Shown: positions 1,851 to 18,437 of the stretch, piece by piece
Numbering within the stretch: position 1 is the first letter of the stretch
How the letters are laid out: each line of letters starts with the position of its first letter
NCBI GenBank assembly: GCA_027858745.1
Contig: JAQICB010000021.1
Location: 1-48,084, forward strand
Direction of reading: 5' to 3'
From: Bacteroidales bacterium
GTDB lineage: Bacteria > Bacteroidota > Bacteroidia > Bacteroidales > UBA1715
Length of the DNA: 48,084 bases
Made by a program: the position numbers and the translations under genes
Notes under the pieces: generated by a model
What the model was told of the DNA's origin: nothing
Seen by the model: the letters and a program-made list of their open reading frames with translations, nothing else
Databases searched by the model: none

Positions 1851-4244
1851 CTATTGAATTATTAATTTTTGCACATACACCTCTTCATCTGTTTGTACTG
1901 AAAGCACATAAACACCTTTCGGCAGTTGTGTTACCATAAGTTCTGCCGTGCCATCAACTATTGGCACTTTCGTTTTCACTACCGACACACCAATACTATT
2001 TATAATTAACACTTGTGCTTCTGTTGATATTTCAGAATCAAAAGAAAGAACAAGAGAGGATGCTGATTGTGTCGGATTGGGAAATACATTCATTTCCGTT
2101 TTGTGTACATACACCAATCCTGTTGGTTTTGGTACAGTAAATGATAAATCCCGACAGCTTGTTTCACCAAACCAGTCTGTTGCAATTATTCGTACATAAT
2201 GCACTCCCGTATCTTGTATCTCCGGGGTTCCGGATAAGGAATGAGTAAATGGCTCAAACGACAACCAATCTGACAAAGGATCTCCGTTCGGTCGTTCTGC
2301 AGAAAATTGTAACACATCATTATTTTCATCAGTAAATCTGTTCAGAGAAACAGAATAATTCAGAGAATACCCAAGATTTATATTAATATTAGACAATGAA
2401 CAATCCGATTCGGGACCAACATTATCGGACTCACCATTATCGGTATATGCTTCAACCTCAAAAAGAGAATAGCCCCATCCGGTAGCTCGCTCATGAAATT
2501 GAATTTTAATATATCGAGCATCTGTTTGAGGTATCACAAAATTATTTACCCCTTGTGCCCCTCTTCCAACAGACATTACCGTATCCCATTGCTGCGCATC
2601 GGTAGACAATAAAATATCATATACATCGCCATATGCTGCTTCCCAATACAAAACGATACGAGAAATGCTGTGTACCGAAAGCATATCAAACTGTATCCAC
2701 TCATCGTCGTTATATGCACTCGACCAGCGTGTTTGCATATCACCATCTGAAGCAGATACTCGTCTGCGTTCCTCATTTTCAGAAGACGAAGCAGACACAA
2801 TACTATATAATAAGTGATTATCAGAATCAACAAGCGAATCACGCACAAGAACATTAAATTGAGTAGATACTGTTTTACCTCCTGTATCAATAGCTTCAAC
2901 AATAAAAGGAATTACGCCGATTGAATCAGCAACAAGATTCAAAGACAGAATAGAATCCTGAAACAAAGAAGGAATTACCGGCCCCTCACCCGAAACAACA
3001 TACGTTAACGGAGTTTCATCTTCAAAAAAATCGTTCAAATTCACATACGCTTCAATCGGATTAGAATTTACATACAAAACCGTATCGGGAATACTTAGAA
3101 TATGCTTTGGTGCATAATTATGATTTGGGTCTCGTGGAATGGTAATAAGCTCCGGATATGTGTTTTGTAAAGAATCCATGACATATCGCATATCACTCAA
3201 ACCACCATGACCGTCATGATTTGTATATGTCCATCCCCAACCGCCGGCATATCCGTTATCAAAAAGAAATGCCAAAGATTCTGTTGCAGAAAGTTCAGAC
3301 GAAGGAGCAAAACCGGCACCATCGTCAATTATTCCATGAGCCGAATACTCACCAATTAATAAAGGTTTATCAAGTTCCCAAAACGTAACCGGATTGTGAA
3401 ACGGTGAATATTTATCACCGGAATATTGTGGATAAAAATGCATCATATAAAAATCGAGCGTACCTGCAGCATCACCACCGGCAGCAATAAGAGCTTCATC
3501 AGAATAATAATTAGTAGAAGAAATTGCTTCTATATCTACCGTTGCTTTTGCATTCCAACTCCCATTCGAAACCTTAGCCTCGGGGTCGGCACGATGGATA
3601 GCTCCGGCACAGCGATTAATAAAACGTTGAATATAGTGAATGTCAACATTTTCAATATGACTCCAATTACCAATAGTCGTCATTCCTTCGGGTTCATTAA
3701 AAATTTCCCAACACAAAATTGCGGTATGTCCGGCAAATCTTTCTACCATAGGAATCAATGCCTTATCAATATATGCTTGTGTAGCTGCCGAATCTTCCAA
3801 CAAAATTCTGTTTTTCGTTAACCGATCCAAAGCAACAGCATCCGACTCTTCATCTTTCTTTGAGTGCATCATATCAAACGACCACAAGCACAGGCTAATA
3901 ACAATCTGATGTTCGGCAGCAATATCTAAAGCTGTTCCCAAATTATTGAGAGCCGTTTCGGAAATCCCAACAATGGTATCATTTTCATACGTAGGCGTAC
4001 TTCGACCGTCTATATGTATCCACCAGCGAACAGAATTACCACCGGCGTCTGACACATTTTGCATAATAGTACGGAACCGCTCCACATCGAAATTTGTGAG
4101 ATCATTCCCAAAATCCATCCACGCAAGATTAATTCCACTCAAAAATATGTCATTCCCCTTATGTTGGATATAATTCTGCGAAAATGCTTGAGATAGAATC
4201 TGGAAAAAAAAGATAGAAAAAAATAGAAACTGTTTCATATACAT
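1851..4244 (-). CDS. Secreted GH5-like glycoside hydrolase with CBM32 and T9SS sorting domain
   Basis: A 797-residue exported enzyme likely to hydrolyse beta-1,4-linked glucan or mannan; the exact substrate cannot be read. A signal peptide covers about residues 1-22 (cleavage near AFSQ; Met3 is an alternative start giving a more typical MKQ leader). The TIM-barrel catalytic domain spans about 24-370, with GINLAWMDFG near the N-terminus, the acid/base Glu184 in FNEP and a probable nucleophile Glu299 in LIGEYS. An Ig/cadherin-like segment follows (about 385-470), then an F5/8 type C (CBM32) carbohydrate-binding domain (about 473-600), a dystroglycan-type cadherin-like domain (about 608-705) and a type-A T9SS C-terminal domain starting near NVFPNP and ending KLIIQ. 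It heads the run leading into the membrane protein and pyrD and diverges from the giant CotH protein gene. Confidence 0.88.
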   Translation of the reverse strand: MYMKQFLFFSIFFFQILSQAFSQNYIQHKGNDIFLSGINLAWMDFGNDLTNFDVERFRTIMQNVSDAGGNSVRWWIHIDGRSTPTYENDTIVGISETALNNLGTALDIAAEHQIVISLCLWSFDMMHSKKDEESDAVALDRLTKNRILLEDSAATQAYIDKALIPMVERFAGHTAILCWEIFNEPEGMTTIGNWSHIENVDIHYIQRFINRCAGAIHRADPEAKVSNGSWNAKATVDIEAISSTNYYSDEALIAAGGDAAGTLDFYMMHFYPQYSGDKYSPFHNPVTFWELDKPLLIGEYSAHGIIDDGAGFAPSSELSATESLAFLFDNGYAGGWGWTYTNHDGHGGLSDMRYVMDSLQNTYPELITIPRDPNHNYAPKHILSIPDTVLYVNSNPIEAYVNLNDFFEDETPLTYVVSGEGPVIPSLFQDSILSLNLVADSIGVIPFIVEAIDTGGKTVSTQFNVLVRDSLVDSDNHLLYSIVSASSSENEERRRVSASDGDMQTRWSSAYNDDEWIQFDMLSVHSISRIVLYWEAAYGDVYDILLSTDAQQWDTVMSVGRGAQGVNNFVIPQTDARYIKIQFHERATGWGYSLFEVEAYTDNGESDNVGPESDCSLSNININLGYSLNYSVSLNRFTDENNDVLQFSAERPNGDPLSDWLSFEPFTHSLSGTPEIQDTGVHYVRIIATDWFGETSCRDLSFTVPKPTGLVYVHKTEMNVFPNPTQSASSLVLSFDSEISTEAQVLIINSIGVSVVKTKVPIVDGTAELMVTQLPKGVYVLSVQTDEEVYVQKLIIQ

Positions 4245-4276
4245 TATTTTATACTATTATCAATCAAAAAAGTACA

Positions 4277-4294
4277 CAAATATACCCAAATATA
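4277..4294 (-). promoter_or_regulatory. Two putative -7 boxes for the GH5-like gene
   Basis: The minus strand carries TATATTTG twice (4277-4284 and 4287-4294), each matching TAnnTTTG. They lie 33-50 bp upstream of the hydrolase start in the 191-bp divergent intergenic region. Confidence 0.4.
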
Positions 4295-4358
4295 GTGTTT
4301 TATTAAAAAAATATTGAACTTTCCTGTTAATTATATAGTGAAAAATAGTAAAAAAATG

Positions 4359-4366
4359 TACTTTTG
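4359..4366 (+). promoter_or_regulatory. Putative -7 box for the giant surface protein gene
   Basis: TACTTTTG matches the Bacteroidota -7 consensus TAnnTTTG. It implies a 5' leader of roughly 60-65 nt before the ATG at 4436. No clear TTG is found at the usual -33 spacing. Confidence 0.4.
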
Positions 4367-4435
4367 ATATTCGGGTTTTTACAAACTTTTTTGTCTTATT
4401 AATAATTGGGAGATTTTATATAAATACTAAAATTT

Positions 4436-7400
4436 ATGAAAAAAATTTTATTCTTAAGTTTAACTATTACATTATCTATATTTCATACACTTAATGCACA
4501 AGTGAAACTAAATGAAATTCAATCAAGCAATGCAACTACAGTAACAAGCGATTTAGGAAACTATGCAGATTGGATAGAATTATACAATACCGGCTCTGCA
4601 ACAGTAGATATTAGTGGCTACTATATAACAGATGATAATGATGAGCCACGAAAATGGCAAGTACCAAGCGGCACAACTATAAGTAGCAACAACCACCTAT
4701 TAATATGGTGTGACGGATTAACTACCGGTCTTCATACAAACTTTAATCTCTCCGGTTCAAAAGGCGAAAAATTATATATCTACTCTTCAAGCATGTTATT
4801 GTTAGACACCGTAACATTTCCTACTCTCACAACAGACTATACATACGGAAGGGTTTTAGACGGAACAGGCGAATGGGCACGATTAGCTTCACCAACTCCC
4901 GACGCACAAAATGATCCGGAAATTATACAAGGTGCTGCTCCTGCCCCCGCATTTTCAATCCCCGCAGGTTTCTATTCTTCGAGTCAAAATGTTGGTATTA
5001 CGAGCTCCGTACCAAACGCGGTGATTCGCTACACAACTGACGGAACCGAACCAACAGAATCTTCTCCCATATATACGGGACCGATTACGGTTGATAAAAC
5101 CACCGATATGACATTAAAATATGGGTACAATCGTGATAACAATACTGGTATACAAGAATATCATTGGGCTGTCGACATAGGATACCCCCCTGTTGGTTAT
5201 TACGACAATGAAAATCAGGAATTTGGGGCTATGATAAAAGCAAAAGCATTTCACGATGATTATTCTCCGAGCAAAACAGCTACTTCTACCTTTTTTATAA
5301 ATATGAGACGTCCGAGTTTACCGATTATTTCAATAACAACAGATAAAGCCGGTTTTTTTAGTGCTGATCAAGGTATTTACATTCAGGGGACAAACGGAGC
5401 AACGGAAACATATGAAGGACAACAATTTACAGCAAACTGGCATCAAGATGATTGGGAACGAAAAGTGTTTGTTGAATATTTTGACGAAAACGGCGAAAAA
5501 CAATTTGGGGTAAATGCCGGTATTCAAACTATGGGTGCTGTCTCTCGAAATTGGGATCAAAAATCTTTAAAAATATCACTCCGTAATGAATATGGCGATT
5601 CAGAGTTAAATTACCCACTTTTTGGTGATGACGGACAAGATTCTTATGACTCATTTTATTTGCGAAACTCCGGAAATGACTGGGAACAAGGGAGTTTAAC
5701 TCGTGATGCAATAATCCAATATATTTTACGTGGAAAAGTAAATTTAGAAACGCAGGCATACAAACCTGTTGTTATGTATCTTAATGGTGAATATTTTGGT
5801 ATCATAAATATGCGAGAACGATACGGTGAAGATCATCTTGCAAACCTCCATGATTTTGTTGACCCGGATGAAGTTGATATACTAAAAATTAATAGCGACG
5901 CTGAAACATTTAATGCTTCTGAAGGAGACTCTACGAGATACTTTGAACTTGTTGATTTTCTAAATTCATTCAGTATGACTGATGAAACGTATTACAATTA
6001 TGTTATTGATAATTATGTTGATAAAGACAATATTATTAATTATTACATCGGACATATTTACTGCCAAAACACCGATTGGCCTGGAAATAACACACGTTTA
6101 TGGCGACCACGTATGCAAAAAGGAAAATTTAGATTTCTTTTTTATGATACCGACTTCGGATATGGTTTATGGGGAGGTGGACCATCTGCTAATAATTTAT
6201 CACGCACGTTGTCGTCAAGTGAAGATCATGCATGGGCTACTATTGTAATTAGAAGTCTGATGGAAAACCCAACATTTGAAAGTGAATTCATTCAACGATT
6301 TAGTTATATGATTAACACTATCTATACTCAAGATAGATTAGAAAGCATTGCTAACAGTTTTGAAAATACTATTGCAAACGAACGTGACAATTACAGTGAT
6401 GAAGAGTGGACAAGAAGTGTGTCTGCCTACGGCTATAATGTTAACGATATGATTTCCTGGGGCATTGATCGTATTGGTTATATGCGCGATCAAATCAATT
6501 CCGAATTCGGTAATGAAGGATACTCATACCTCACGGTGAATTTTACTGAGAGTAATGGGTCGGTATATCTCTGTTCTCTCCCGGTTGAGGCAGGATATTC
6601 GGGTAGACAATACGAAAACACTCCCATTAGGCTTGTTGCTGAGGCAAAAGACGGATATCAATTTGTGCGATGGAAAAGTGGTTCAACAACCCTTTCTACC
6701 GAGCAAGAATATTTTTTAACTATCACCGGTGATTACACAATAGAAGCAGAATTTGAATCACGAACGCCTGTTACCGGAATTCACATAAACGAAATAATGG
6801 CTTCGAACAGTCTGTTTTTCAATAACGAATTAAATGAATATGAGGATTGGATAGAAATATACAATCCGGGAACTTCAGATATTGATTTAGCAGGATTGTA
6901 CATAAGCGACCGCTTAGATAGTCTCGATAAACACAAAATCCAATACGGTTCTCCGGAACTTACAACTGTTCCAGCCGGTGGTTATTTAATATTATGGGCA
7001 GATAAACAAACTCACGCCGGGGCGAATCACCTTAATTTCAACCTCGCTCGCACCGGAGAATCGGTAGTTATTTCTCAAATTAACGCAAGTGGTACAACAA
7101 CAATTATTGATCAGATAACGTATGGAGTGCAAAACATCAATCTTTCTTTCGGTCGTTATCCTGATGGTTCTTCGAACCAAATTGTTTTTGATATACCAAC
7201 TCCCGACGCTTCAAATCAAATTCAAAGTACTGCTGAAATTGACGGTTTAGTAATTACCGAATGTATGGCAAAAAATGCACAAACAATTACCGAAGAAACC
7301 GGTGGGTATGCTGATTGGATTGAAATATATAACAGTACCGATGAAGCAATTAACATCGGTGGCTTATTTGTGACCAATGATTTAGGCGATTTAAACAAAT

Positions 7401-10400
7401 ATATGATTCCGGCAAACCAACCATCTCTTACAACAATTCAACCTAGTGAATATTATATACTTTGGGCAGACGAACAAATTGCAATCAACCCAAATCACGT
7501 TGGTTTCAAACTCAAAGCAGAGTTTGGCGATATTGCTATCGTGCAATTACGCGGATCTGAAAATTATATAATTGACCAAGTTTCATACGCTAATCAAGGT
7601 GAGGATATTGCATATGGAAGGTTTCCGTCTACCACATCTGGATTCCGATATTTACCCACTCCCACTCCGGGTGACCCCAACTCTAACAATGCAACTATAA
7701 GTATTAAAACCGGGTTAACTATCAATGAACTCTTAGCTGCGAATACATCTATTGTAAAAACCGAATACAATAAATATTCTGATTATATTGAATTCTATAA
7801 CGCCTCTTCCACTCCTATTGACTTAGGTGGTTTATTTGTGAGCGATTCGCTTTCGTATAGTCTAAAATACCGCATTCCGCGAAATAATTCTGCTGAAACA
7901 ACTGTTCAGCCCGGCGAATGGATTACATTCTGGGCAAACAGTTCTCCCGAAAATGGCAGTATGCATTTAGACTTCGGACTTGATGTTCTCGGAGAAGAAG
8001 TGGTGCTTTCTCAAGTTACCGAAAATGGCATTCAACAACTTGACTATATAATATTTGAAGCACAAACACAAAATATCAGTTACGGTCGTTTTCCCGAAAC
8101 AACTGATAATTGGGAGTTGATGACGCCAACATATAATGCGGAAAATCAATCGACCTCTGCAAGTACGAGTTTAGCTACGCTTACTACCAGTATTGGAGAA
8201 ATTTCACCATCATATTCAAACACGGTTTCTCATTACATTTGCTACTTACCACAAGGCACCTCAAATCCTCCGGTAATTTCGGCAACACCAATGAACGAAA
8301 ATGCTTCTCTTACTATTACACAAGCAACTTCTCTCAGCGAACAAGCAACAGTCGATATAATATCAGCTGATGGTAACAATACGGCAACGTACACCGTAAG
8401 CTTCGAATTAGCACCATCTGATGATGCTACACTTTCTGTTCTATCAACTGACTATGGCACATTAAGCCCGGTTTTTTCACCAAGCATAAACACGTATACA
8501 ATAGACCTTCCGTCACCAATTATTCCTTTGCTTACCGCTCAAGCAAATCAAGAAAATGCATCGGTTGAAATTAATTATGGAAGCTCTATAGAAAATACAA
8601 CTTCCATAACCGTTACCGCTGAATCCGGAAATACAAATACTTATTTTATTTCGTACAACTCTCAAACACAAAATGAAATAATTTATAGTTGGGTAGATGA
8701 TTTCAATAATGGCAGCACAAGCGAATGGGATATTAGCGGTTCAAGTACTGATTTTTACGCAATCACCGCAACAAACGGAGAAATAAACCTTTCTCAAGCA
8801 GCAGAAAAAACAACATACAGAACGGTTACATATACTTTACCGGCAGGTTTTGTATTAGATATGGAAAATAATCCAAATCCGGTTTTATCGCTTGATGTAT
8901 ATGCTTCCGAAGACTCTGAAATACGGATTGACCTTAAAGATATTAATAGCACGACCGGAAATTCCGAAACAATAAGTCACACCGTAACAGGTGGCACCAC
9001 AGAAACTTTAATGTTTGATTATGACGGCGTAAACACCGGAGCAGATGAATCTCAAATAAACACTATTGTTTTTTACACTGACCCGGATGATTATATTGCC
9101 GACGAAAAAGAATTCATTTTTGATAATTTAACTATTGGTATTCCTTTATCAGCAAATGCTGATTTAGCTTCGCTTAGCTCAAATATTGGCACATTATCTC
9201 CAACATTTAGTGCAAACACAACCGAATATTCACTCACAATTCCTCATAATACGACAACAATTCCTACAATTTCCGCAAATGCCGATGATGTAAATGCTCT
9301 TGTTGAAATCAGTCAGGCATCTTCGGTAACCGGAGAAGCTACAATTAGAGTTACAGCTGAAAATAATACCACGCAAACATATACGGTAACAATTGAACGT
9401 GAATTAGAAATTGTTGAAGGATATGTCGAAAACATTATACAACCAAATCTAGCAGGATTCAGTGAATCAAATGCAACCTACGAATTAATATACGGCGGTG
9501 GATACGCAGAAATCTCATATAATCGTTCGGAAACAAGTGGTAACGATAGTTTTATATATAACATTTCAGAAGCTGATGCAAAAATCTTAAATCTCTCTAA
9601 TTACCCCTATGTTGCCATTCGTGCTCGAACAACCACACTTACAGACATGCGTATTGATTTGTTTGACGGGAACGAATATGTAAGCACCGAAACACCTGTC
9701 TCAGTGACTGTTAACGGCCCCGAATACACCACATATGTGTATAATTTTGCAAATAAACTTGCTGCAAATCTTACGGTAGAAGATATTCGAGGCATAAAAA
9801 TATACTTTGATAAAGATGTGACTACTGTTAATTCAGGCTCTGTGTTCTTCGATAAAATTATGTTTGGCAGCGAGGTTGATATGTTAATCAATCACCCGCC
9901 TGTTATTTCAACTATCCCTAACCAGACACAAATGCGGGGAGAAACGTTTAGTAACATTTTACTCGACAATTATGTGAGTGATGATAATACATCTGATGGC
10001 TCGTTAATATGGTCTCATTCAAGTTCAACAGCTTTTGCACTGTCAATATCATCATCTCATGCCTTAAGCATTACCCCTCTCGATTCTGAATGGATGGGAA
10101 GTGAAGAGATCACATTAACCGTTGCAGATACAGAGGGAGAATCCTCATCAATAACTATTACCATTTCTGTTACAGAATTACAAATTCCGGCTGAAAGTGT
10201 TACGTTTACACAAACATCTATTAGTTTAGATCAAGAACAAACACGTGACTTGCATACGTATTTGACCATTTATCCGGAAACTGCCACAATTGAAAGTATA
10301 ATTTGGTCTGTTGATAATCCAAATATTTCTATTACAGAAAACGGCATCATTTCACATTCTCTTGAATTTGGAAGCGAATCAGGTACTATCAGTGTTACGG

Positions 10401-13400
10401 TTCTCGACAAATCAGGTAATGAATACATACAAACAATGGTTGTAGTAATTACCGGGTGCCCAATACATTTAGAAACAGTAACATTAAGTCCCTCACTAGC
10501 AACGGTAACCGAAGAGCAAACACTGCAATTATCTCCTGTTTTGTACCCTACCGATGCGTGTATTCAAAACATCTCATATTCTTCTGATGAGGAAACTATT
10601 GCTACAGTTTCGGAAACTGGTTTAGTAAGTGGATTAATTCCGGGAACAGCTATTATAACTATTTCTATTAATGACGGTTTTTCAACAATTACCAGCACAC
10701 GAACAGTTACGGTAGAAAAAGATTGTTCGGGAGATATTAGCCTATCGATAAACAAAGAAATAACAGATATAATTGAAACATATACAGAAACGCTCATTGC
10801 AAACATTAGCCCCGATGATGAATGTACGGAAAATAATGTGATAATATGGGAAAGTCTTGACACAGATTATGCTACCGTAAATTCAAATGGTATTGTTTCT
10901 GCAATAGCTGAAGGAACAGCACGTATAGTAGCATCGACAACAGGCAACGGCATTACGTCTGACACATGTATTGTGAACGTTCTCAAAGATTGTTACTATG
11001 GCACAGTAACCGTAACCTTAGATTTAGAAACTGAATCTATTCTTACTAATAGTGGTACTACCCTTACCTACTCTATTTCTCATCCGGATGCCTGTAATAG
11101 CGGAGTAACATGGGAATCAACAGAGGAAACTATTGCAACAGTGGATGAAAATGGAGAAGTTTCTGCGATAAATATTGGTGAAACTTATATTATTTGTCGT
11201 AGTGTTCAATCTCCAGAAATGGCAGATACCTGTATTCTAAGTGTTGAAGAACGCCTACCGACATCTATCGAATTACCAAGCACTCTCACGGTATATGATG
11301 ATGAAAATGTAAGCATTACCGCGACCGTTCTTCCCGAAAATGCTGACAATAAAAATATAACTTGGGAAACGCTCAATCAGGATATAATTTCTCTCACTCA
11401 AACAGGAGATATGACCGCTTTAGAAGTTGGTACCGATACTATTCGGGTAACATCTCTTGCTGACCCGTCAATTTATGCTGAATGTATTGTAACCATTTTA
11501 CCGGTTGAAGCAGATACTATCATCATTACTCCCGATACCCTTGAATTATTTGTATATGATGAAAGCAGTCTTTCTGTAACTTTTGAACCAATAAACACAA
11601 CGAATCAATCGATTGTATGGTCGATTGCAAATACAGATATTGCGACACTATCAGAAGGAACAATTACTGCTGTTTCTGCCGGCGAAACTATTATCACCGC
11701 AATAGCAAGTAATGGTGCATATTCAGAAGCAGTGGTAATTGTATCAGACATTGAACCAACCGACATTCTGCTTTCTGAAACAAGTCTTTCATTATTCCCC
11801 GAAGAAATTGCAACTCTTTCGGTATTATTTACACCATTAAATACGACTGACACTCTTGTTTCATGGACATCAAACAATACTGATATTGCTACGGTTTCTG
11901 AGGGTATTGTCACCAGCCATTCTGTGGGAGAAACAATTATTACCGTAACAACAAACAATGGTTTAGAACAAACATGTGATGTGACTGTATCTCCTGTTAT
12001 TGCTGAATCTATCACATTAAACACACACGAAGTATCACTAATAATTGATGATACACAACAATTAATAGGTGCTATTTCGCCAGATAACACGACAGACCAA
12101 ACAATTTCTTGGCATTCCGAAAATGAAACAATTGCAACAGTAGACGAAACAGGATTAGTTACGGCACATAATGTTGGGCAAACAGAAATCATTACAACAA
12201 CTCACAATAACCTTACTGACACATGTATTGTCTATGTGGAAGAAACTGTAATTGAAGTTGATAGTGTTGTATTAAGCGATGAAAATCTTTCCATTTTATT
12301 ACTTAGTTCGGGTTCTTTATCTGCTGAAATTTATCCTTTTGACGCATCAAACAAAACGGTCATTTGGAAAAGTGCAAACACCAATATTGCAACTGTTTCA
12401 CAATCCGGTACAATTACGCCACAACAAACAGGTGAAACATATATTGTTGCTACTACCTCAAACAATCTTACCGATACTTGTTTTATAACAATTCAACCAA
12501 ACCCGATTACGACTATTTCATTGAGTCAATCAACAATAGATTTAGCTCAAAATGCATCGAGTAACCTCGAACAATTTATTGTGATTGAACCCTCTGAAGC
12601 AGAAATTAGCTCAATAAATTGGTCAACAGAATCAGATAACATCACCTTAGATGCAAACGGTATGGTTTCCAATCTTGTTGATTTTGGTACAGAAACAGCA
12701 ATCGTTACTCTTGTCGTAAGTGACACATACACCAATGAGTTTACTGAAACAATAACCCTAAACCTTACCGGATGTGCGACCGAACTTACTTCAGTAACTC
12801 TTTCGCCGGCAGCAACAACAATAGTTGAAGGGGGAACACTCCAACTGAGCCCCACACATGCTCCAACAAACGCATGTATTAAATTTACAACCTACGAAAG
12901 CTTAAACGAAACAGTAGCGAGCATTTCTCAAACAGGATTAATCACTGCTCACCTAACGGGTGAAACAACAATCGAAGTAACAGTTTCTGATGGGTTTAAT
13001 ACCTATTCCGATTCATTTATCCTCACAGTTGAAAAAGACTGTTCAGGAGATATTGAATTGTCATTATCGGAAACGTCATATACAATTACACGGGGATTTT
13101 CGTTCACATTAACAACAACAATAATTCCCGATGACGAATGTACAACTGACAACGTAATTACATGGATCAGTTCGAACCCTGAAATTGCGAGTGTTGAAAA
13201 TGGAGTTGTTTCTGCTCACGAAACAGGAACAACAACAATTACCGCATCAACAGATGGCACTGGTATTACTGTCGCAACTTGCGAAGTAACCGTAATTTCC
13301 GATTGTTTCGAGGGAACCGTTTCAATTGAAGCAAGTACAGATTCCATATCGCTCTACAAAACCGAAACGGCTCTAAGCTCCGCAAATATAATTCCAACAG

Positions 13401-16387
13401 AAGCATGTGACGCTTCTGTAACTTGGACATCAAGCAATACTGAAATTGCAACAGTAAACGATGGAACAATCACTGCTCTTTCTACATTTGGAGAATGCTA
13501 TATTATTTGCTCAAGCAATCAATCTCCTGAAATTACAGATACAATTGTTGTTTCGGTAATTGAACGACTCCCTTCTTCGGTTTCACTTACCGAAACACTT
13601 AATATCTATATTGAAGATGAAACAATACTCACAGCGACAATTGAACCAATAAATGCCGACGACAAATCACTCACTTGGACAAGTTCCAATCTTAGCATTG
13701 TCGGTATCGATGCATCGGGTACAATTATCGGCAACTCTATTGGAACAGCAACGATTACAGCAACAACAATAAATAATATATCTGCTTCATGCGAAGTAAC
13801 GGTCTTACCAATACCGGCAAGTTCATTTTCATTATCAGAATCTGTTGCATCAATATTTGTGTATGATGAGCTCCAATTAAACGGAACTATTCTACCCGAC
13901 AACACTACGAATACAACTATTTCGTGGTCTAGTTCAGATTCGAATATTGCAACGGTAGATGAAAACGGTAAGGTTACCGGGATTTCTTCCGGACAAACAA
14001 CAATTACAGCACGAACACATAATGATAAACTTGCTGAATGCATTGTTACCGTAAAAGATATTCAACCAACACATATTACATTAGAAATTGGTCTCGACTC
14101 TATGAATGTTAATACGACACAAACAATCAATGTTACATTTGACCCCGAAAATACGACAGCACGAGAAATCGAATGGTCAACCAGTAATGTTAATCTTGCA
14201 ACGGTAAATGACTTAGGTCAGATTACCGCATTACAACCCGGCACCGTTATTTTTACAGCTACAACCAGTAATGACATTTCACAAGAAATTTCAATTGTGG
14301 TACGACCAATTGAAACAGAATCTATCAGTCTTAACACCACTGCGGTTAACATTCGCATTTCCGAAAACCAACAATTAATTGCAAGCATTTATCCGGAAAA
14401 CACAACCGATAAAACAATTACATGGACATCAGCTGACACAAGTATTGCCACAGTAAACAATTCCGGAAAAATTCTTGGAAAATCAATAGGAACAACAGGT
14501 ATTACGGCAACAACAGCTAACGGAAAAACAGCTACCTGTAACGTTACTGTTCGTTTAAATACCATTTCTGTTGACGAAGTGATAATAAGTCAAGATTTTA
14601 TTGATATGTTCCCAGATGCAAGTCATCAAGTTTCCGCTGAAATTGTTCCCGACAATGCTACCAACAAAACAATAGTGTGGTCAAGTAACAAAATTTCAGT
14701 TGCCACTGTAGACCAAAACGGAGTTATTACTTCTGTAAGCCCGGGAACAGCGTTAGTTATAGCAACGGCATCAAACGGAATTGCAGACACCTGTACCGTT
14801 ACCGTCATGCCAATTTACGCAGACAGTATTATTATATCGACACAAGCTATTACTCTTTCGATTAATGAATCGCAAGAAATAACAGCCGAAATTTATCCGG
14901 AAAATGCCACTCAAAAAACAATTTTTTGGTCAGTAGAAAATACCGATATCGCAAGTGTTTCAACAAATGGAACATTAACCGGAAATAATATTGGCGCAAC
15001 AGAATTATATGCTCAAACATTAAACGGTTCCATCGATACCTGTATAGTTACCATTATTGAAGTTTCTATTCCGGCAGACAGTATCCATGTTTCTCCTACC
15101 GAATCGAATATTGATGTTGATGAAACAATTACAGCTCTCGTAACATTTTATCCCGAAGCAACCACAAATAAAACAATAACGTGGACTTCTAATGATGAAA
15201 ATATTGCAAGCGTTAATCAATACGCAAAAATTACAGGTGTAAACACCGGAACAACAATTATTCGTGCAAAATCAGCAAATAACAAAACAGCAGAAATTCA
15301 CATAACAGTTAACGAATTATTTGCATCATCTATCGAACTCGAAGCATCATCTCTCATTTTTGAACCGGGACAAACACATACAATTGGTGCAACTATTTCG
15401 CCTATTAAAACCACAAACAAAACAATAACATGGACAAGCGAAAATGAAGAAATTGCAAGGGTTAACGAATTTGGTCTCATCACGGCTGTTTCGCCCGGAA
15501 CTACGCTCATTACTGCAACAACATCAAACGAATTAACAACATCCTGCGAAATAACAGTTACCGAAATCTATCCTACAGAGATATCTATTATTCCTCCGGA
15601 CAAAACAACTATTTTAATTGACGAAACACTGCAATTGAATGTTGAATACACGCCGACTTCAACAACTGCAACTGGATTACTTTGGTCAAGTTCAAATACA
15701 GATATTGCAACAGTCAATGAATTTGGTGAAGTAACCGGAATAAATGAAGGTGTTGTTACTATAAATGTAAGTTCCGAAATTTATCAGAATGTTAATACTT
15801 CAATAAACATAAGCGTTTCTATTTATAACGAAGCTCCTGTTGTTACCGACATTCCTCCACAAGTCATTTTAATTGGCGAAGAATTCCCGATTATCAATTT
15901 GAATGACTATTTCACAGATGATAACACATCTGCAAATAACATAAGATGGTCGGCAAACACTCCCGGAGTAATAAGCCTTCAAATTAACAGTAATGGTGAT
16001 GTTACCGCAACATGCACTCAAGAAGGATGGCTCGGAAGCGAAACAATTACAATTCGAGCAAAAGACGAACATGGGTTAATAACATCGTATCCGGTAATAT
16101 ATACAATTTCTGACGGTACTGCGATACACTCTGTTTCTTTACAAACCATACGGGTTTACCCGAACCCAAGCACGGGAATATTTACTCTTGCATTTGAAAC
16201 CGTGTCGGAAGGAAACTACACAATTCAATTAATATCACCCGAAGGGAAAACTGTGTTTGCAGAAAAAAGCTTTGTGTTAGGTTCGTATTCTCATAGATTT
16301 ACCAACAATTCATTAGCAAAAGGAATATATACCATTAGAATACAACACAAAAAACAGAGTATAACTCGACATATACTTATACAGTAA
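4436..16387 (+). CDS. Giant T9SS surface protein with lamin-tail, CotH kinase, cadherin-like and 22 Ig-like domains
   Basis: A 3983-residue exported protein, probably a surface adhesin or substrate-binding scaffold. Domains in order (approximate residues): signal peptide 1-21; lamin-tail domain (LTD) 23-158; chitobiase C-terminal-like region 165-289; CotH kinase-like domain 293-690, with the NTDWPGNN motif (Asp547) and the YDTD motif (Asp571, Asp573), so it may bind ATP and phosphorylate; InlB-type repeat 696-775; LTDs at 782-920, 937-1085 and 1093-1235; cadherin-like beta-sandwich domains at 1245-1325, 1327-1407 and 1574-1658, alternating with two jelly-roll-like modules (1415-1570, 1662-1815); a cadherin/dystroglycan-like domain 1819-1916; 22 Big_2 Ig-like domains 1917-3797; a second cadherin/dystroglycan-like domain 3798-3895; and a type-A T9SS sorting domain ending HILIQ. 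It sits between a GH5-like and a GH9 gene, which suggests a role in polysaccharide attachment. Domain identities are solid; the function is inferred. Confidence 0.9.
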   Translation: MKKILFLSLTITLSIFHTLNAQVKLNEIQSSNATTVTSDLGNYADWIELYNTGSATVDISGYYITDDNDEPRKWQVPSGTTISSNNHLLIWCDGLTTGLHTNFNLSGSKGEKLYIYSSSMLLLDTVTFPTLTTDYTYGRVLDGTGEWARLASPTPDAQNDPEIIQGAAPAPAFSIPAGFYSSSQNVGITSSVPNAVIRYTTDGTEPTESSPIYTGPITVDKTTDMTLKYGYNRDNNTGIQEYHWAVDIGYPPVGYYDNENQEFGAMIKAKAFHDDYSPSKTATSTFFINMRRPSLPIISITTDKAGFFSADQGIYIQGTNGATETYEGQQFTANWHQDDWERKVFVEYFDENGEKQFGVNAGIQTMGAVSRNWDQKSLKISLRNEYGDSELNYPLFGDDGQDSYDSFYLRNSGNDWEQGSLTRDAIIQYILRGKVNLETQAYKPVVMYLNGEYFGIINMRERYGEDHLANLHDFVDPDEVDILKINSDAETFNASEGDSTRYFELVDFLNSFSMTDETYYNYVIDNYVDKDNIINYYIGHIYCQNTDWPGNNTRLWRPRMQKGKFRFLFYDTDFGYGLWGGGPSANNLSRTLSSSEDHAWATIVIRSLMENPTFESEFIQRFSYMINTIYTQDRLESIANSFENTIANERDNYSDEEWTRSVSAYGYNVNDMISWGIDRIGYMRDQINSEFGNEGYSYLTVNFTESNGSVYLCSLPVEAGYSGRQYENTPIRLVAEAKDGYQFVRWKSGSTTLSTEQEYFLTITGDYTIEAEFESRTPVTGIHINEIMASNSLFFNNELNEYEDWIEIYNPGTSDIDLAGLYISDRLDSLDKHKIQYGSPELTTVPAGGYLILWADKQTHAGANHLNFNLARTGESVVISQINASGTTTIIDQITYGVQNINLSFGRYPDGSSNQIVFDIPTPDASNQIQSTAEIDGLVITECMAKNAQTITEETGGYADWIEIYNSTDEAINIGGLFVTNDLGDLNKYMIPANQPSLTTIQPSEYYILWADEQIAINPNHVGFKLKAEFGDIAIVQLRGSENYIIDQVSYANQGEDIAYGRFPSTTSGFRYLPTPTPGDPNSNNATISIKTGLTINELLAANTSIVKTEYNKYSDYIEFYNASSTPIDLGGLFVSDSLSYSLKYRIPRNNSAETTVQPGEWITFWANSSPENGSMHLDFGLDVLGEEVVLSQVTENGIQQLDYIIFEAQTQNISYGRFPETTDNWELMTPTYNAENQSTSASTSLATLTTSIGEISPSYSNTVSHYICYLPQGTSNPPVISATPMNENASLTITQATSLSEQATVDIISADGNNTATYTVSFELAPSDDATLSVLSTDYGTLSPVFSPSINTYTIDLPSPIIPLLTAQANQENASVEINYGSSIENTTSITVTAESGNTNTYFISYNSQTQNEIIYSWVDDFNNGSTSEWDISGSSTDFYAITATNGEINLSQAAEKTTYRTVTYTLPAGFVLDMENNPNPVLSLDVYASEDSEIRIDLKDINSTTGNSETISHTVTGGTTETLMFDYDGVNTGADESQINTIVFYTDPDDYIADEKEFIFDNLTIGIPLSANADLASLSSNIGTLSPTFSANTTEYSLTIPHNTTTIPTISANADDVNALVEISQASSVTGEATIRVTAENNTTQTYTVTIERELEIVEGYVENIIQPNLAGFSESNATYELIYGGGYAEISYNRSETSGNDSFIYNISEADAKILNLSNYPYVAIRARTTTLTDMRIDLFDGNEYVSTETPVSVTVNGPEYTTYVYNFANKLAANLTVEDIRGIKIYFDKDVTTVNSGSVFFDKIMFGSEVDMLINHPPVISTIPNQTQMRGETFSNILLDNYVSDDNTSDGSLIWSHSSSTAFALSISSSHALSITPLDSEWMGSEEITLTVADTEGESSSITITISVTELQIPAESVTFTQTSISLDQEQTRDLHTYLTIYPETATIESIIWSVDNPNISITENGIISHSLEFGSESGTISVTVLDKSGNEYIQTMVVVITGCPIHLETVTLSPSLATVTEEQTLQLSPVLYPTDACIQNISYSSDEETIATVSETGLVSGLIPGTAIITISINDGFSTITSTRTVTVEKDCSGDISLSINKEITDIIETYTETLIANISPDDECTENNVIIWESLDTDYATVNSNGIVSAIAEGTARIVASTTGNGITSDTCIVNVLKDCYYGTVTVTLDLETESILTNSGTTLTYSISHPDACNSGVTWESTEETIATVDENGEVSAINIGETYIICRSVQSPEMADTCILSVEERLPTSIELPSTLTVYDDENVSITATVLPENADNKNITWETLNQDIISLTQTGDMTALEVGTDTIRVTSLADPSIYAECIVTILPVEADTIIITPDTLELFVYDESSLSVTFEPINTTNQSIVWSIANTDIATLSEGTITAVSAGETIITAIASNGAYSEAVVIVSDIEPTDILLSETSLSLFPEEIATLSVLFTPLNTTDTLVSWTSNNTDIATVSEGIVTSHSVGETIITVTTNNGLEQTCDVTVSPVIAESITLNTHEVSLIIDDTQQLIGAISPDNTTDQTISWHSENETIATVDETGLVTAHNVGQTEIITTTHNNLTDTCIVYVEETVIEVDSVVLSDENLSILLLSSGSLSAEIYPFDASNKTVIWKSANTNIATVSQSGTITPQQTGETYIVATTSNNLTDTCFITIQPNPITTISLSQSTIDLAQNASSNLEQFIVIEPSEAEISSINWSTESDNITLDANGMVSNLVDFGTETAIVTLVVSDTYTNEFTETITLNLTGCATELTSVTLSPAATTIVEGGTLQLSPTHAPTNACIKFTTYESLNETVASISQTGLITAHLTGETTIEVTVSDGFNTYSDSFILTVEKDCSGDIELSLSETSYTITRGFSFTLTTTIIPDDECTTDNVITWISSNPEIASVENGVVSAHETGTTTITASTDGTGITVATCEVTVISDCFEGTVSIEASTDSISLYKTETALSSANIIPTEACDASVTWTSSNTEIATVNDGTITALSTFGECYIICSSNQSPEITDTIVVSVIERLPSSVSLTETLNIYIEDETILTATIEPINADDKSLTWTSSNLSIVGIDASGTIIGNSIGTATITATTINNISASCEVTVLPIPASSFSLSESVASIFVYDELQLNGTILPDNTTNTTISWSSSDSNIATVDENGKVTGISSGQTTITARTHNDKLAECIVTVKDIQPTHITLEIGLDSMNVNTTQTINVTFDPENTTAREIEWSTSNVNLATVNDLGQITALQPGTVIFTATTSNDISQEISIVVRPIETESISLNTTAVNIRISENQQLIASIYPENTTDKTITWTSADTSIATVNNSGKILGKSIGTTGITATTANGKTATCNVTVRLNTISVDEVIISQDFIDMFPDASHQVSAEIVPDNATNKTIVWSSNKISVATVDQNGVITSVSPGTALVIATASNGIADTCTVTVMPIYADSIIISTQAITLSINESQEITAEIYPENATQKTIFWSVENTDIASVSTNGTLTGNNIGATELYAQTLNGSIDTCIVTIIEVSIPADSIHVSPTESNIDVDETITALVTFYPEATTNKTITWTSNDENIASVNQYAKITGVNTGTTIIRAKSANNKTAEIHITVNELFASSIELEASSLIFEPGQTHTIGATISPIKTTNKTITWTSENEEIARVNEFGLITAVSPGTTLITATTSNELTTSCEITVTEIYPTEISIIPPDKTTILIDETLQLNVEYTPTSTTATGLLWSSSNTDIATVNEFGEVTGINEGVVTINVSSEIYQNVNTSINISVSIYNEAPVVTDIPPQVILIGEEFPIINLNDYFTDDNTSANNIRWSANTPGVISLQINSNGDVTATCTQEGWLGSETITIRAKDEHGLITSYPVIYTISDGTAIHSVSLQTIRVYPNPSTGIFTLAFETVSEGNYTIQLISPEGKTVFAEKSFVLGSYSHRFTNNSLAKGIYTIRIQHKKQSITRHILIQ
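10184..12502 (+). repeat. Nine-domain Ig-like block, first copy (within the giant protein gene)
   Basis: Residues 1917-2689 contain nine Big_2 domains. The block aligns domain for domain with residues 2690-3460: TGC, EKDCSGDI, ERLP, VYDE, DIEPT and ESITLNT here correspond to TGC, EKDCSGDI, ERLP, VYDE, DIQPT and ESISLNT there, at a constant offset of about 2313-2319 nt. The first domain of each block is the long variant, and domains 2-4 carry paired Cys. Confidence 0.85.
12503..14815 (+). repeat. Nine-domain Ig-like block, second copy (within the giant protein gene)
   Basis: Residues 2690-3460 are the diverged tandem duplicate of 1917-2689. The duplicated unit is a whole set of nine domains, not a single Ig domain, since block-specific linkers and Cys positions recur in the same order. 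Domain 9 of this block runs into four further Big_2 domains. Confidence 0.85.
14816..15826 (+). repeat. Four terminal Ig-like (Big_2) domains outside the nine-domain blocks
   Basis: Residues 3461-3797 hold four more Big_2 domains, each with the ITW(T/S)S-type strand and IA-V motif. They do not continue the block register. They are followed by the second cadherin/dystroglycan-like domain and the sorting domain. Confidence 0.8.
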
Positions 16388-16409
16388 AAAAATAATTTTA
16401 CAAAAACGA

Positions 16410-16441
16410 GGGTATTTCATTGTTTGAAATACCCTTTTTTG
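16410..16441 (+). terminator. Rho-independent terminator after the giant protein gene
   Basis: A perfect 10-bp stem, GGGTATTTCA (16410-16419) with TGAAATACCC (16425-16434), loop TTGTT, followed by seven T. It lies 23 nt past the stop codon and separates the giant gene from the GH9 gene. Confidence 0.9.
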
Positions 16442-16514
16442 TGTACAGAATTACCAAATAATTATTATTTTTACGACAAATGAATTTTCAAAATATTATT
16501 TAAACAAGTAACAA

Positions 16515-18437
16515 ATGAAACAATTACTATTTATAATTTCACTCGCCATGGTATACAGTTGTAACACTAAAAAAATCAACACAGAAGATATTGTAAACAC
16601 AGGAACATATATTGTTATCGATCAATTTGGCTATCTGCCCGAATCCGAAAAAATTGCAGTCATCCGTTGTCCCGAAATCGGATTTGATGCCGAAGAGACG
16701 TACACTCCTGGAAACACCTTCACAGTTATTAATGCAGAAACTAATACTGAAATTTTTTCGGACACAATTAGCTCATGGAAAAATGGAGATATTGATTCAA
16801 CATCAGGCGATAAAGTGTGGTACTTTGATTTTTCTAAACTCACAGAAAATGGCAGTTATTATATTCTAGACAAAGAAAACAACTATGCTTCATATCCTTT
16901 TTCTATTTCAGAAGATGTGTACAAAAACACCTTAAAACATGCGTTCCGCACGTTTTTCTACCAACGTGCCGGCTTTACAAAAGAAGCACAATATGCAGGC
17001 GAAGGCTGGGCAGATAGTGCCAGTCATGTCGGAAAAGGACAAGACACCGAATGTCGAAATTTTTTAGATAAAGATAACCCGGCAACAGAAAAAGATGTAC
17101 ACGGAGGATGGTACGATGCCGGTGATTATAATAAATATACAAACTGGACTGCCGATTATATTCATTACTTATTACTTGCCTACGAAGAAAATCCGAAAGC
17201 ATGGACAGACGACTTTAATATTCCTGAATCGGGCAATGGCATTCCCGACATTATTGATGAAGTAAAATTCGGACTCGAACATTTACTTCGTTTGCAATTT
17301 GATGATGGTAGTTTAATTGCCGTTGTCGGTGTTTCTCACGGCTGCCCCCCATCGGCTGCTCAAGACTCAAGCTTTTGGGGCGGACCAAGCACCTCGGCAA
17401 GCCTTTCGGGAGCAATGGCATATGCATACGGTGCAAAAGTGTTGAAAGAATTTGATGCAGATTTTGCTCAAAAACTAGAAATTGCAGCAAAAAAAGCATG
17501 GGATTGGGCTGACAAAAATCCAAAAGTGCTGTTTTACAACAATAGTGCTGAACATGGCACCCAAGGTTTAGCAGCAGGACAGCAAGAAGTTGATGATTTA
17601 GCACGAATCGAGAAAAAAATTCATGCAGCAATGCGATTGTACGACCTCACCAAAGACAAAAAATACCAACAATTCTTTGAAGAAAATTATTCGAAAGCAC
17701 GTATGATTGAATGGCAATTAGTATATCCATTCGGCGAAGCTAATCAGGATATGCTCTTATACTACTCAAAACTTCCGTATGCAAATAAAGAAATAGCATC
17801 TCAAATACAATCTATCTACAAAAAAGGTCTAGATACTATTTATAATCTATTTGCAATTCGCGACCAAAACGATGCATATTTTGCCTACCAAAAAGATTAT
17901 GTATGGGGTTCTAACGGTACTAAGTCAAAACAAGGAAATATCTATTACAATCTTATTACCTACGATATTTCGCCAAAAACTGAAATTTCAACCAATTATA
18001 AAAATCTAGCTGCGCGATATATTCATTACTTACACGGAGTTAATCCACTTAATTTTTGCTATTTAACAAACATGAACTCTCGAGGTGCAACCAACAGCGT
18101 TACAGAAGTATACCACGAATGGTTCCAAGAAGGATCAGAAAAATGGGATAAAGCGGGTGTTTCAACATATGGCCCCGCACCGGGATTCCTTGTCGGAGGT
18201 CCAAATCCGGCGTACTCATGGGATGGGTGTTGCCCGGACGATTGTGACAGTGAAGAAAATAATGCAAAATGTTTTGAGCTCGATGTTTCAGTTATTACCA
18301 ACCAACCGGCATTGAAATCATTTATGGATTTTAACCACGGATGGCCATTAAATTCATGGGCAATTACCGAAAATAGTTGTGGCTATCAAGTGCAATATTT
18401 ACGTCTGCTTTCAAAATTTGTTGCAGATTCAAAATAA
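16515..18437 (+). CDS. GH9 endoglucanase-type lipoprotein
   Basis: A 640-residue family 9 glycoside hydrolase that should cleave beta-1,4-glucan (cellulose or related) by inversion. The N-terminus is a lipoprotein signal with lipobox VYSC (Cys16), so it is membrane anchored and, unlike its two large neighbours, has no T9SS sorting domain. Residues about 30-130 form the CelD_N-type Ig-like domain (VIDQFGYLP motif), followed by the (alpha/alpha)6 barrel. The motif GGWYDAGDYNKYT carries Asp201 and Asp204 (catalytic base region). The C-terminal signature ends SWAITENS, with Glu619 as the proton donor, and the HGVNPLNFCY and NSRGATNS segments are typical. The gene has its own terminator downstream and is separated from the giant gene by another. 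Active-site residues appear intact. Confidence 0.93.
   Translation: MKQLLFIISLAMVYSCNTKKINTEDIVNTGTYIVIDQFGYLPESEKIAVIRCPEIGFDAEETYTPGNTFTVINAETNTEIFSDTISSWKNGDIDSTSGDKVWYFDFSKLTENGSYYILDKENNYASYPFSISEDVYKNTLKHAFRTFFYQRAGFTKEAQYAGEGWADSASHVGKGQDTECRNFLDKDNPATEKDVHGGWYDAGDYNKYTNWTADYIHYLLLAYEENPKAWTDDFNIPESGNGIPDIIDEVKFGLEHLLRLQFDDGSLIAVVGVSHGCPPSAAQDSSFWGGPSTSASLSGAMAYAYGAKVLKEFDADFAQKLEIAAKKAWDWADKNPKVLFYNNSAEHGTQGLAAGQQEVDDLARIEKKIHAAMRLYDLTKDKKYQQFFEENYSKARMIEWQLVYPFGEANQDMLLYYSKLPYANKEIASQIQSIYKKGLDTIYNLFAIRDQNDAYFAYQKDYVWGSNGTKSKQGNIYYNLITYDISPKTEISTNYKNLAARYIHYLHGVNPLNFCYLTNMNSRGATNSVTEVYHEWFQEGSEKWDKAGVSTYGPAPGFLVGGPNPAYSWDGCCPDDCDSEENNAKCFELDVSVITNQPALKSFMDFNHGWPLNSWAITENSCGYQVQYLRLLSKFVADSK

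Follow-up and report, generated by a model that had tools for sequence, protein, structure and literature searches.

We analysed contig JAQICB010000021.1 of the Bacteroidales bacterium assembly GCA_027858745.1 (lineage UBA1715), a stretch of 48,084 nucleotides, hereafter the window. It is numbered C41 here and belongs to a draft genome that totals 2.92 Mb, with a completeness of 98%. The window encodes a giant protein of 3983 aa (4436-16387, + strand) in which a CotH kinase-type domain and lamin-tail domains (LTD) are followed by a repetitive Big_2 region and a sorting domain of the type IX secretion system (T9SS). The reading that we prefer, at roughly even odds (about 0.5), is that this protein represents a family-specific, surface-anchored stalk with a CotH head that would bind plant fibre and work together with a T9SS-secreted mannanase or xyloglucanase. 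The core of the system would then consist of the giant protein, with a divergently transcribed mannanase of glycoside hydrolase (GH) family 5 as its commonest upstream partner, while the GH9 enzyme encoded downstream would stand outside it.

Three intact open reading frames (ORFs) lie side by side at 1851-4244 (- strand, 797 aa), 4436-16387 (+ strand, 3983 aa) and 16515-18437 (+ strand, 640 aa), in agreement with an earlier sequence-only reading of this DNA, in which they had been recognized as a GH5-like enzyme, a giant CotH protein and a GH9 enzyme. Pfam domains in the giant follow the order LTD, CHB_HEX_C/Fn3_assoc (CHB_HEX_C_1), CotH, Flg_new_2 (a divergent InlB B-repeat) and further LTDs, for a total of four. 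The rest of the chain begins with a segment of cadherin-like and jelly-roll domains and continues with Big_2 in 20 stretches, before it ends in a Por_Secre_tail. The CotH domain occupies residues 363-682 (5522-6481; PF08757, E 5.6e-40), the best of the four LTD stretches residues 779-897 (6770-7126; PF00932, E 3.7e-46), and the Big_2 stalk positions 10180-15920 (PF02368, E 8.2e-191), its outer limits being approximate and set by eye. A type-A sorting domain at 16154-16384 (PF18962; TIGR04183, 33.8 bits vs. a cut-off of 23) and a signal peptide, read by eye, give the giant both features of a T9SS cargo protein. Two jelly rolls, likewise foreseen from the sequence, were modelled by AlphaFold with moderate confidence (pLDDT 68.9 overall) at about residues 1416-1570 (8681-9145) and 1660-1816 (9413-9883). 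The first resembled the carbohydrate-binding modules (CBMs) of BiXyn10A, the mannanase entry 1wky and CBM29 (Z 11-12), the second CBM30 and CBM11 of Clostridium thermocellum cellulosomal enzymes (Z 12.2-12.8), and the best matches also included CBM4 and agarase/xylanase domains (Z 11-13 range). No Pfam CBM match was present in the giant, and Foldseek TM-scores for the whole jelly-roll model, by query length, reached at most 0.25, because the model comprises several domains of unsure arrangement.

The giant is a constant feature of its uncultured Bacteroidales family. Among 14 family genomes from four genera, that of the window (G000) included, an orthologue was found in every one with the first 776 residues as query, and the complete ORFs measured 3665-3983 aa, those of G001 and G003 being left out of this range since they are interrupted by contig ends. 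The two relatives whose giants were scanned with Pfam, G006 and G011, showed the same architecture with 15 and 20 Big_2 stretches, respectively. In a wider sample of 295 genomes of the order, 4 of them in the family and 291 outside, the giant was matched in 4/295 genomes at a strict cut of E ≤ 1e-100, all family members, and in 0/291 outside, distant LTD/CotH proteins below this cut not being counted. The trees of the GH5 and of the giant agree at genus level, consistent with inheritance. As a separate observation, the giant has changed faster in the window genome, where its branch was 2.5 times as long as in the genus mate (0.45 vs. 0.18), and a weaker difference was seen for GH9 (0.44 vs. 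0.32).

The genes surrounding the giant change across the family, and most are hydrolases. The divergent GH5-giant pair occurs in 8/14 genomes (G000, G002, G003, G005, G006, G007, G008, and G010), while G004 and G009 have both genes in non-adjacent positions and in G001 and G012 the sequence upstream of the giant is cut off. Downstream, on the same strand, a GH74-type xyloglucanase follows in 7/14 (G002, G004, G005, G006, G007, G009, and G010), at distances as short as 5 bp in G007, 16 bp in G005 and 44 bp in G010; the assignment was made by Pfam, the G006 copy matching xyloglucanases in the PDB and the others being recognized by BLAST to that copy. G012 alone carries there a GH5 cellulase with CBM4_9. 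Counting also the GH9 of the window, a GH follows the giant in 9 of the 13 genomes in which the downstream slot can be seen. Taken together, 25 of the 28 flank slots over the 14 genomes are visible and 17 of them hold a GH (8 GH5, 7 GH74, 1 GH5 cellulase, and 1 GH9), the other eight being taken by DnaJ, UDG (twice), FtsX, SufBD, DNA polymerase I, RibD and one ORF without assignment. By comparison, a GH was found in 0/25 flank slots of the GH9 orthologues of the 13 relatives, and in 1/22 neighbours (a GH8 in G011) of 13 non-giant CotH genes, out of 21 matches, a result that led us to reject CotH genes in general as hydrolase neighbours. The variety of hydrolase types in the slots, together with the finding that all four genera include members with a GH beside the giant, argues for more than one linkage event.

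These results bear on the proposal, made from the sequence alone, of a conserved three-gene locus for polysaccharide degradation. The giant and GH9 are adjacent in 1/14 genomes though both are present in 14/14, and confinement to this strain, the outcome named beforehand as speaking against the locus, is what was found for the triple (1/14) and not for the GH5-giant pair (8/14). The broader notion of a giant T9SS protein linked to plant-wall hydrolases in a setting free of SusC/SusD gained support that was not available to the sequence-only reading, through GH74 in seven genomes and the GH5 cellulase in one. That no SusC/SusD pair lies nearby was borne out as far as SusD is concerned: SusD_RagB was matched three times in the genome, on C101, C140, and C164, and not on C41, so that SusD beside hydrolases, the mark of a Sus-type polysaccharide utilization locus (PUL), was not found for the C41 genes, SusC not having been searched separately. 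The genome holds 59 matches to T9SS tails vs. 3 to SusD. Neither a dockerin nor a cohesin Pfam domain, as expected of a cellulosome, was detected in GH5, giant or GH9.

The GH5 enzyme (1851-4244, - strand; Pfam Cellulase, F5_F8_type_C, He_PIG, and Por_Secre_tail) is of the mannanase type. Its catalytic domain (residues 24-355, 3180-4175) aligns with 2c0h and places Glu184 in an NEP and Glu299 in an IGE motif; both residues are invariant in the 10 family copies, and the best solved relatives are the β-1,4-mannanases 2c0h, 5y6t, 3vup, and 4oou (E 1e-43 to 1e-29), a combination that identifies a GH5 β-mannanase at the sequence level, presumably of subfamily GH5_10. A CBM32-like (F5/8 type C) domain follows at residues 484-595 (2460-2795; E 2.6e-20), the nearest solved structures being domains of the glucanase/chitosanase entries 4zz5 and 2rva, and a type-A sorting domain at 1857-2087 (PF18962; TIGR04183, 39 bits vs. 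a cut-off of 23), together with a signal peptide read by eye, again marks a T9SS cargo. The long GH5 orthologue is present in 10/14 family genomes, and the family search found none in G001, G011, G012, and G013, with one weaker GH5 match (37% over the catalytic part) in G011. In all seven genomes of genus g3 the GH5 is succeeded first by another GH5-like gene and then by an MFS_2-type transporter (recognized by Pfam in G005 and by similar N-termini in the other genomes), and a mannoside phosphorylase of family GH130 comes next in G004, G009, and G010. The window genome also holds a SusCD-free mannan set, not on C41 but on contig C35 (locus L136, 11511-18371), made of a GH5-like lipoprotein, an MFS_2-like transporter, two GH130 and a GlcNAc_2-epimerase-family gene, where the lipoprotein, which gave no Pfam hit, and the transporter were assigned by likeness. 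The gene sets with MFS_2 and GH130 in sister genomes and on C35 support mannan as the putative substrate of the GH5. About 4 kb from the C35 set, at 5422-7566, lies a gene for a 714-aa CotH protein with a T9SS tail.

The 191-bp region between GH5 and the giant (4245-4435) is a putative divergent promoter, with TAnnTTTG boxes, which we take to be the promoter consensus, at 4359-4366 (+ strand, towards the giant) and at 4287-4294 and 4277-4284 (- strand, towards GH5). Such boxes point towards the giant in 8/8 GH5-giant intergenic regions and towards GH5 in 6/8, against an expectation of 0.1-0.5 per region obtained from shuffles that preserved only local base composition. No CotH was found near GH5 relatives outside the family (loci L019-L037) with a profile search that also missed the CotH genes of C35 and C117 seen by Pfam.

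The giant could instead be a general surface adhesin, acting in cell-cell contact, on host mucus or in biofilms, with GH neighbours merely inherited from an ancestor, an alternative that we hold to be possible but rather unlikely. It would account for the presence of the giant in all 14 genomes, including G011 and G013, where no GH stands beside it, and according to the trees one ancestral GH5 linkage and one GH74 linkage explain 15 of the 17 slots; moreover, Big_2 and Por_Secre_tail carry no substrate information. On the other hand, the GH families differ across genera (GH5 of the mannanase type, GH74, GH5 cellulase, and GH9), the core gene GH9 used as control had a GH in 0/25 slots, and the two jelly rolls, as modelled, resemble CBMs. 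Several observations nonetheless weigh against fibre binding by the giant. The 17/25 slots are not 17 independent events, as the linkages are inherited; G011 and G013 lack a GH beside the giant and the only visible side in G001 is DnaJ, so the giant does not need GH neighbours; and in G004 and G009 the GH5 is away from the giant yet still with mannan genes. Identity per 100 residues was 0.42-0.66 in the LTD/CotH part vs. 0.08-0.43 in the jelly rolls and stalk, the stalk being least conserved, and the N-terminal head model had a mean pLDDT of 49.9. Finally, the jelly-roll fold recurs in many non-carbohydrate proteins, with reelin, meprin and a complex I assembly factor among the matches, and because CBM and non-CBM jelly rolls both match, sugar binding by these domains is plausible only.

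Less likely again is that the CotH head acts as a kinase that phosphorylates itself or co-secreted hydrolases and thereby controls surface assembly, a possibility raised by analogy. The CotH profile of the giant matches spore coat protein H (5jd9/5jda) with E 8.6e-14, and Asp547 and the Asp571-x-Asp573 motif, aligned with that protein, are invariant in the 14 giants and in 7 diverse CotH, so that the domain and its kinase Asp residues are both in place. Changes of Asp228 and Asp251 inactivate Bacillus subtilis CotH (PMC7821199), the numbering of the giant not being mapped to these mutants. The cellulosomal protein Cthe_0239 of C. thermocellum is composed of LTD, LTD, Fn3 and CotH (PMC6083626), and cellulosomal CotH may be structural and/or regulatory through kinase activity (PMC12484212). 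Against a kinase stand the weak sequence likeness to the solved enzyme, a putative substrate with no candidate and, again, the low pLDDT of the head model. We also know of no ATP source beyond the inner membrane for the CotH domain of the giant. An extension of the same analogy, improbable in our view, would make the giant a T9SS-anchored, single-chain counterpart of the cellulosome scaffold, namely a stalk specific to the family that grips plant fibre with its CBM-like domains and has an active CotH head, which phosphorylates hydrolases secreted on their own and so gathers them on the cell surface; if this were true, the LTD/Fn3/CotH module would be a common organizer of fibre degradation in the cellulosomes of Clostridia and the T9SS systems of Bacteroidales.

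The GH9 enzyme (16515-18437, + strand; Pfam CelD_N and GH9) belongs to its family by sequence (PF00759, E 2.7e-50), and Asp201, Asp204, and Glu619, which we take to be catalytic, are invariant in the 14 family copies. Its orthologue, found in 14/14 genomes, adjoins the giant in the window genome only. All three proteins had been thought to be exported and GH9 to be anchored at the surface: export agrees with the T9SS tails of GH5 and giant and with the lipobox-like signal (VYSC) of GH9, whereas surface anchoring of the latter was not upheld. No T9SS sorting domain was detected in the window GH9 with Pfam or TIGR04183. Export of lipoproteins to the surface is generally tied to an acidic run after the lipobox Cys; the window copy has none, and by inspection the lipobox itself is limited to this copy and that of G011. 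As 12/14 orthologues have a plain signal peptide without lipobox and no acidic run follows the window Cys, GH9 is probably periplasmic. A strong terminator-like hairpin (16408-16436, + strand; 12 pairs followed by a T tract; 2 hits vs. a mean of 0.1 in shuffles, z -2.73) separates the giant from GH9, and a hairpin after the giant is also found in some relatives (G002 and G004, with GH74 beyond it). A single fibre-degrading unit of GH5, giant and surface-anchored GH9 could draw on the adjacency and export signals of all three and on the GH in 9/13 slots after the giant, by which GH9 could be another recruitment, but it is very doubtful, and we rejected GH9 as part of the giant unit given the adjacency in 1/14 genomes with its orthologue elsewhere beside other genes (GH in 0/25), the hairpin, the lack of a T9SS tail and the signal peptides without lipobox. 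A GH9 paralogue, 54% identical and followed by two ORFs that are GH16-like by eye, is found on contig C46 of the same genome (locus L149, 345-5298).

Other genes were noted in passing. Further CotH genes (locus L137, 3962-10039, and loci L140, L143, L145, and L146) stand beside DUF2490 proteins in a recurring neighbourhood distinct from that of the giant, which in L137 also includes a VTC domain gene. In G011 (locus L148, 4225-9999) a 1925-aa ORF with GH8, DUF11 and Fib_succ_major adjoins a non-giant CotH gene, and at 20410-23004 of the window an 864-aa protein with a T9SS signal domain of the CHU_C type adjoins a DUF6702 gene.

According to the fibre-binding reading that we favor, the giant would leave the cell through Sec and then the type IX machinery, and its C-terminus would be fixed at the cell surface through the type-A domain. 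The approximately 20 Big_2 domains would form a long stalk, and we infer that the LTD/CotH/LTD head and the two jelly rolls point outward. In this position the giant may hold cells, and probably also co-secreted T9SS hydrolases, on plant hemicellulose or cellulose, where the GH5 with its CBM32-like domain would cut mannan and, in relatives, the GH74 xyloglucan, with the oligosaccharides possibly taken up by a route with few or no SusCD pairs. The CotH domain could either phosphorylate partners or serve as a structural head. How Bacteroidales with few SusCD systems hold and digest fibre is an unsettled question, and the giant is an immediate candidate for the component that attaches them, on the grounds of its presence in 14/14 family genomes and in no sampled order genome outside, and of its changing plant-wall hydrolase flanks. 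Through it, the role of CotH in fibre degradation could be studied in a second context, away from cellulosomes. Earlier publications cover fibre degradation by T9SS enzymes free of SusCD, as well as cellulosomal CotH; a giant protein combining CotH, LTD, Big_2 and a T9SS tail was not found described, nor was any report joining CotH kinase, Bacteroidetes and polysaccharide, in a literature coverage that leaves out most subscription journals.

One close known system is that of 'Candidatus Paraporphyromonas polyenzymogenes' (family Ca. MH11), for which a T9SS-dependent, PUL-poor degradation of fibre has been described in rumen Bacteroidales (PMC5831590), so that an alternative to both cellulosomes and Sus systems, as the sequence-only reading had put forward, had already been proposed. 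Like this organism, several relatives of the window genome are herbivore-gut Bacteroidales, and common to both are T9SS-tailed carbohydrate-active enzymes, few or no SusC/SusD PULs and a repertoire with GH74 and mannanases (PMC5831590). The text of that paper mentions neither CotH (0 occurrences) nor an adhesin. CotH/LTD proteins are also known from cellulosomes, both those of C. thermocellum, with CseP and Cthe_0239, and those of anaerobic fungi (PMC6083626; PMC12484212). They share with the giant the module of LTD, Fn3-type domain and CotH tied to plant-wall hydrolases, but the giant has no dockerin or cohesin, and its single chain of 3983 aa combines CBM-like jelly rolls with a stalk of 20 Big_2 domains and a T9SS tail. 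With the spore coat protein H kinase (5jd9/5jda) it has in common the CotH domain and the conserved Asp, although its CotH, a putative kinase, forms part of a giant chain that is secreted. For the mannan genes, Bacteroides fragilis BF0772 provides an example of a SusCD-free pathway with GH130 (PMC8950772). Unlike in that pathway, the secreted mannanase here is T9SS-tailed and paired with the giant. In the sister genomes mannanase, MFS_2-type sugar transporter and GH130 stand together, as they reportedly do in the operon layout of the B. fragilis pathway. SprB, a giant T9SS adhesin, is very large, repeat-rich and exported to the surface; the giant of the window is alike in these traits and differs from SprB by its head of CotH and LTD and by its hydrolase neighbours.

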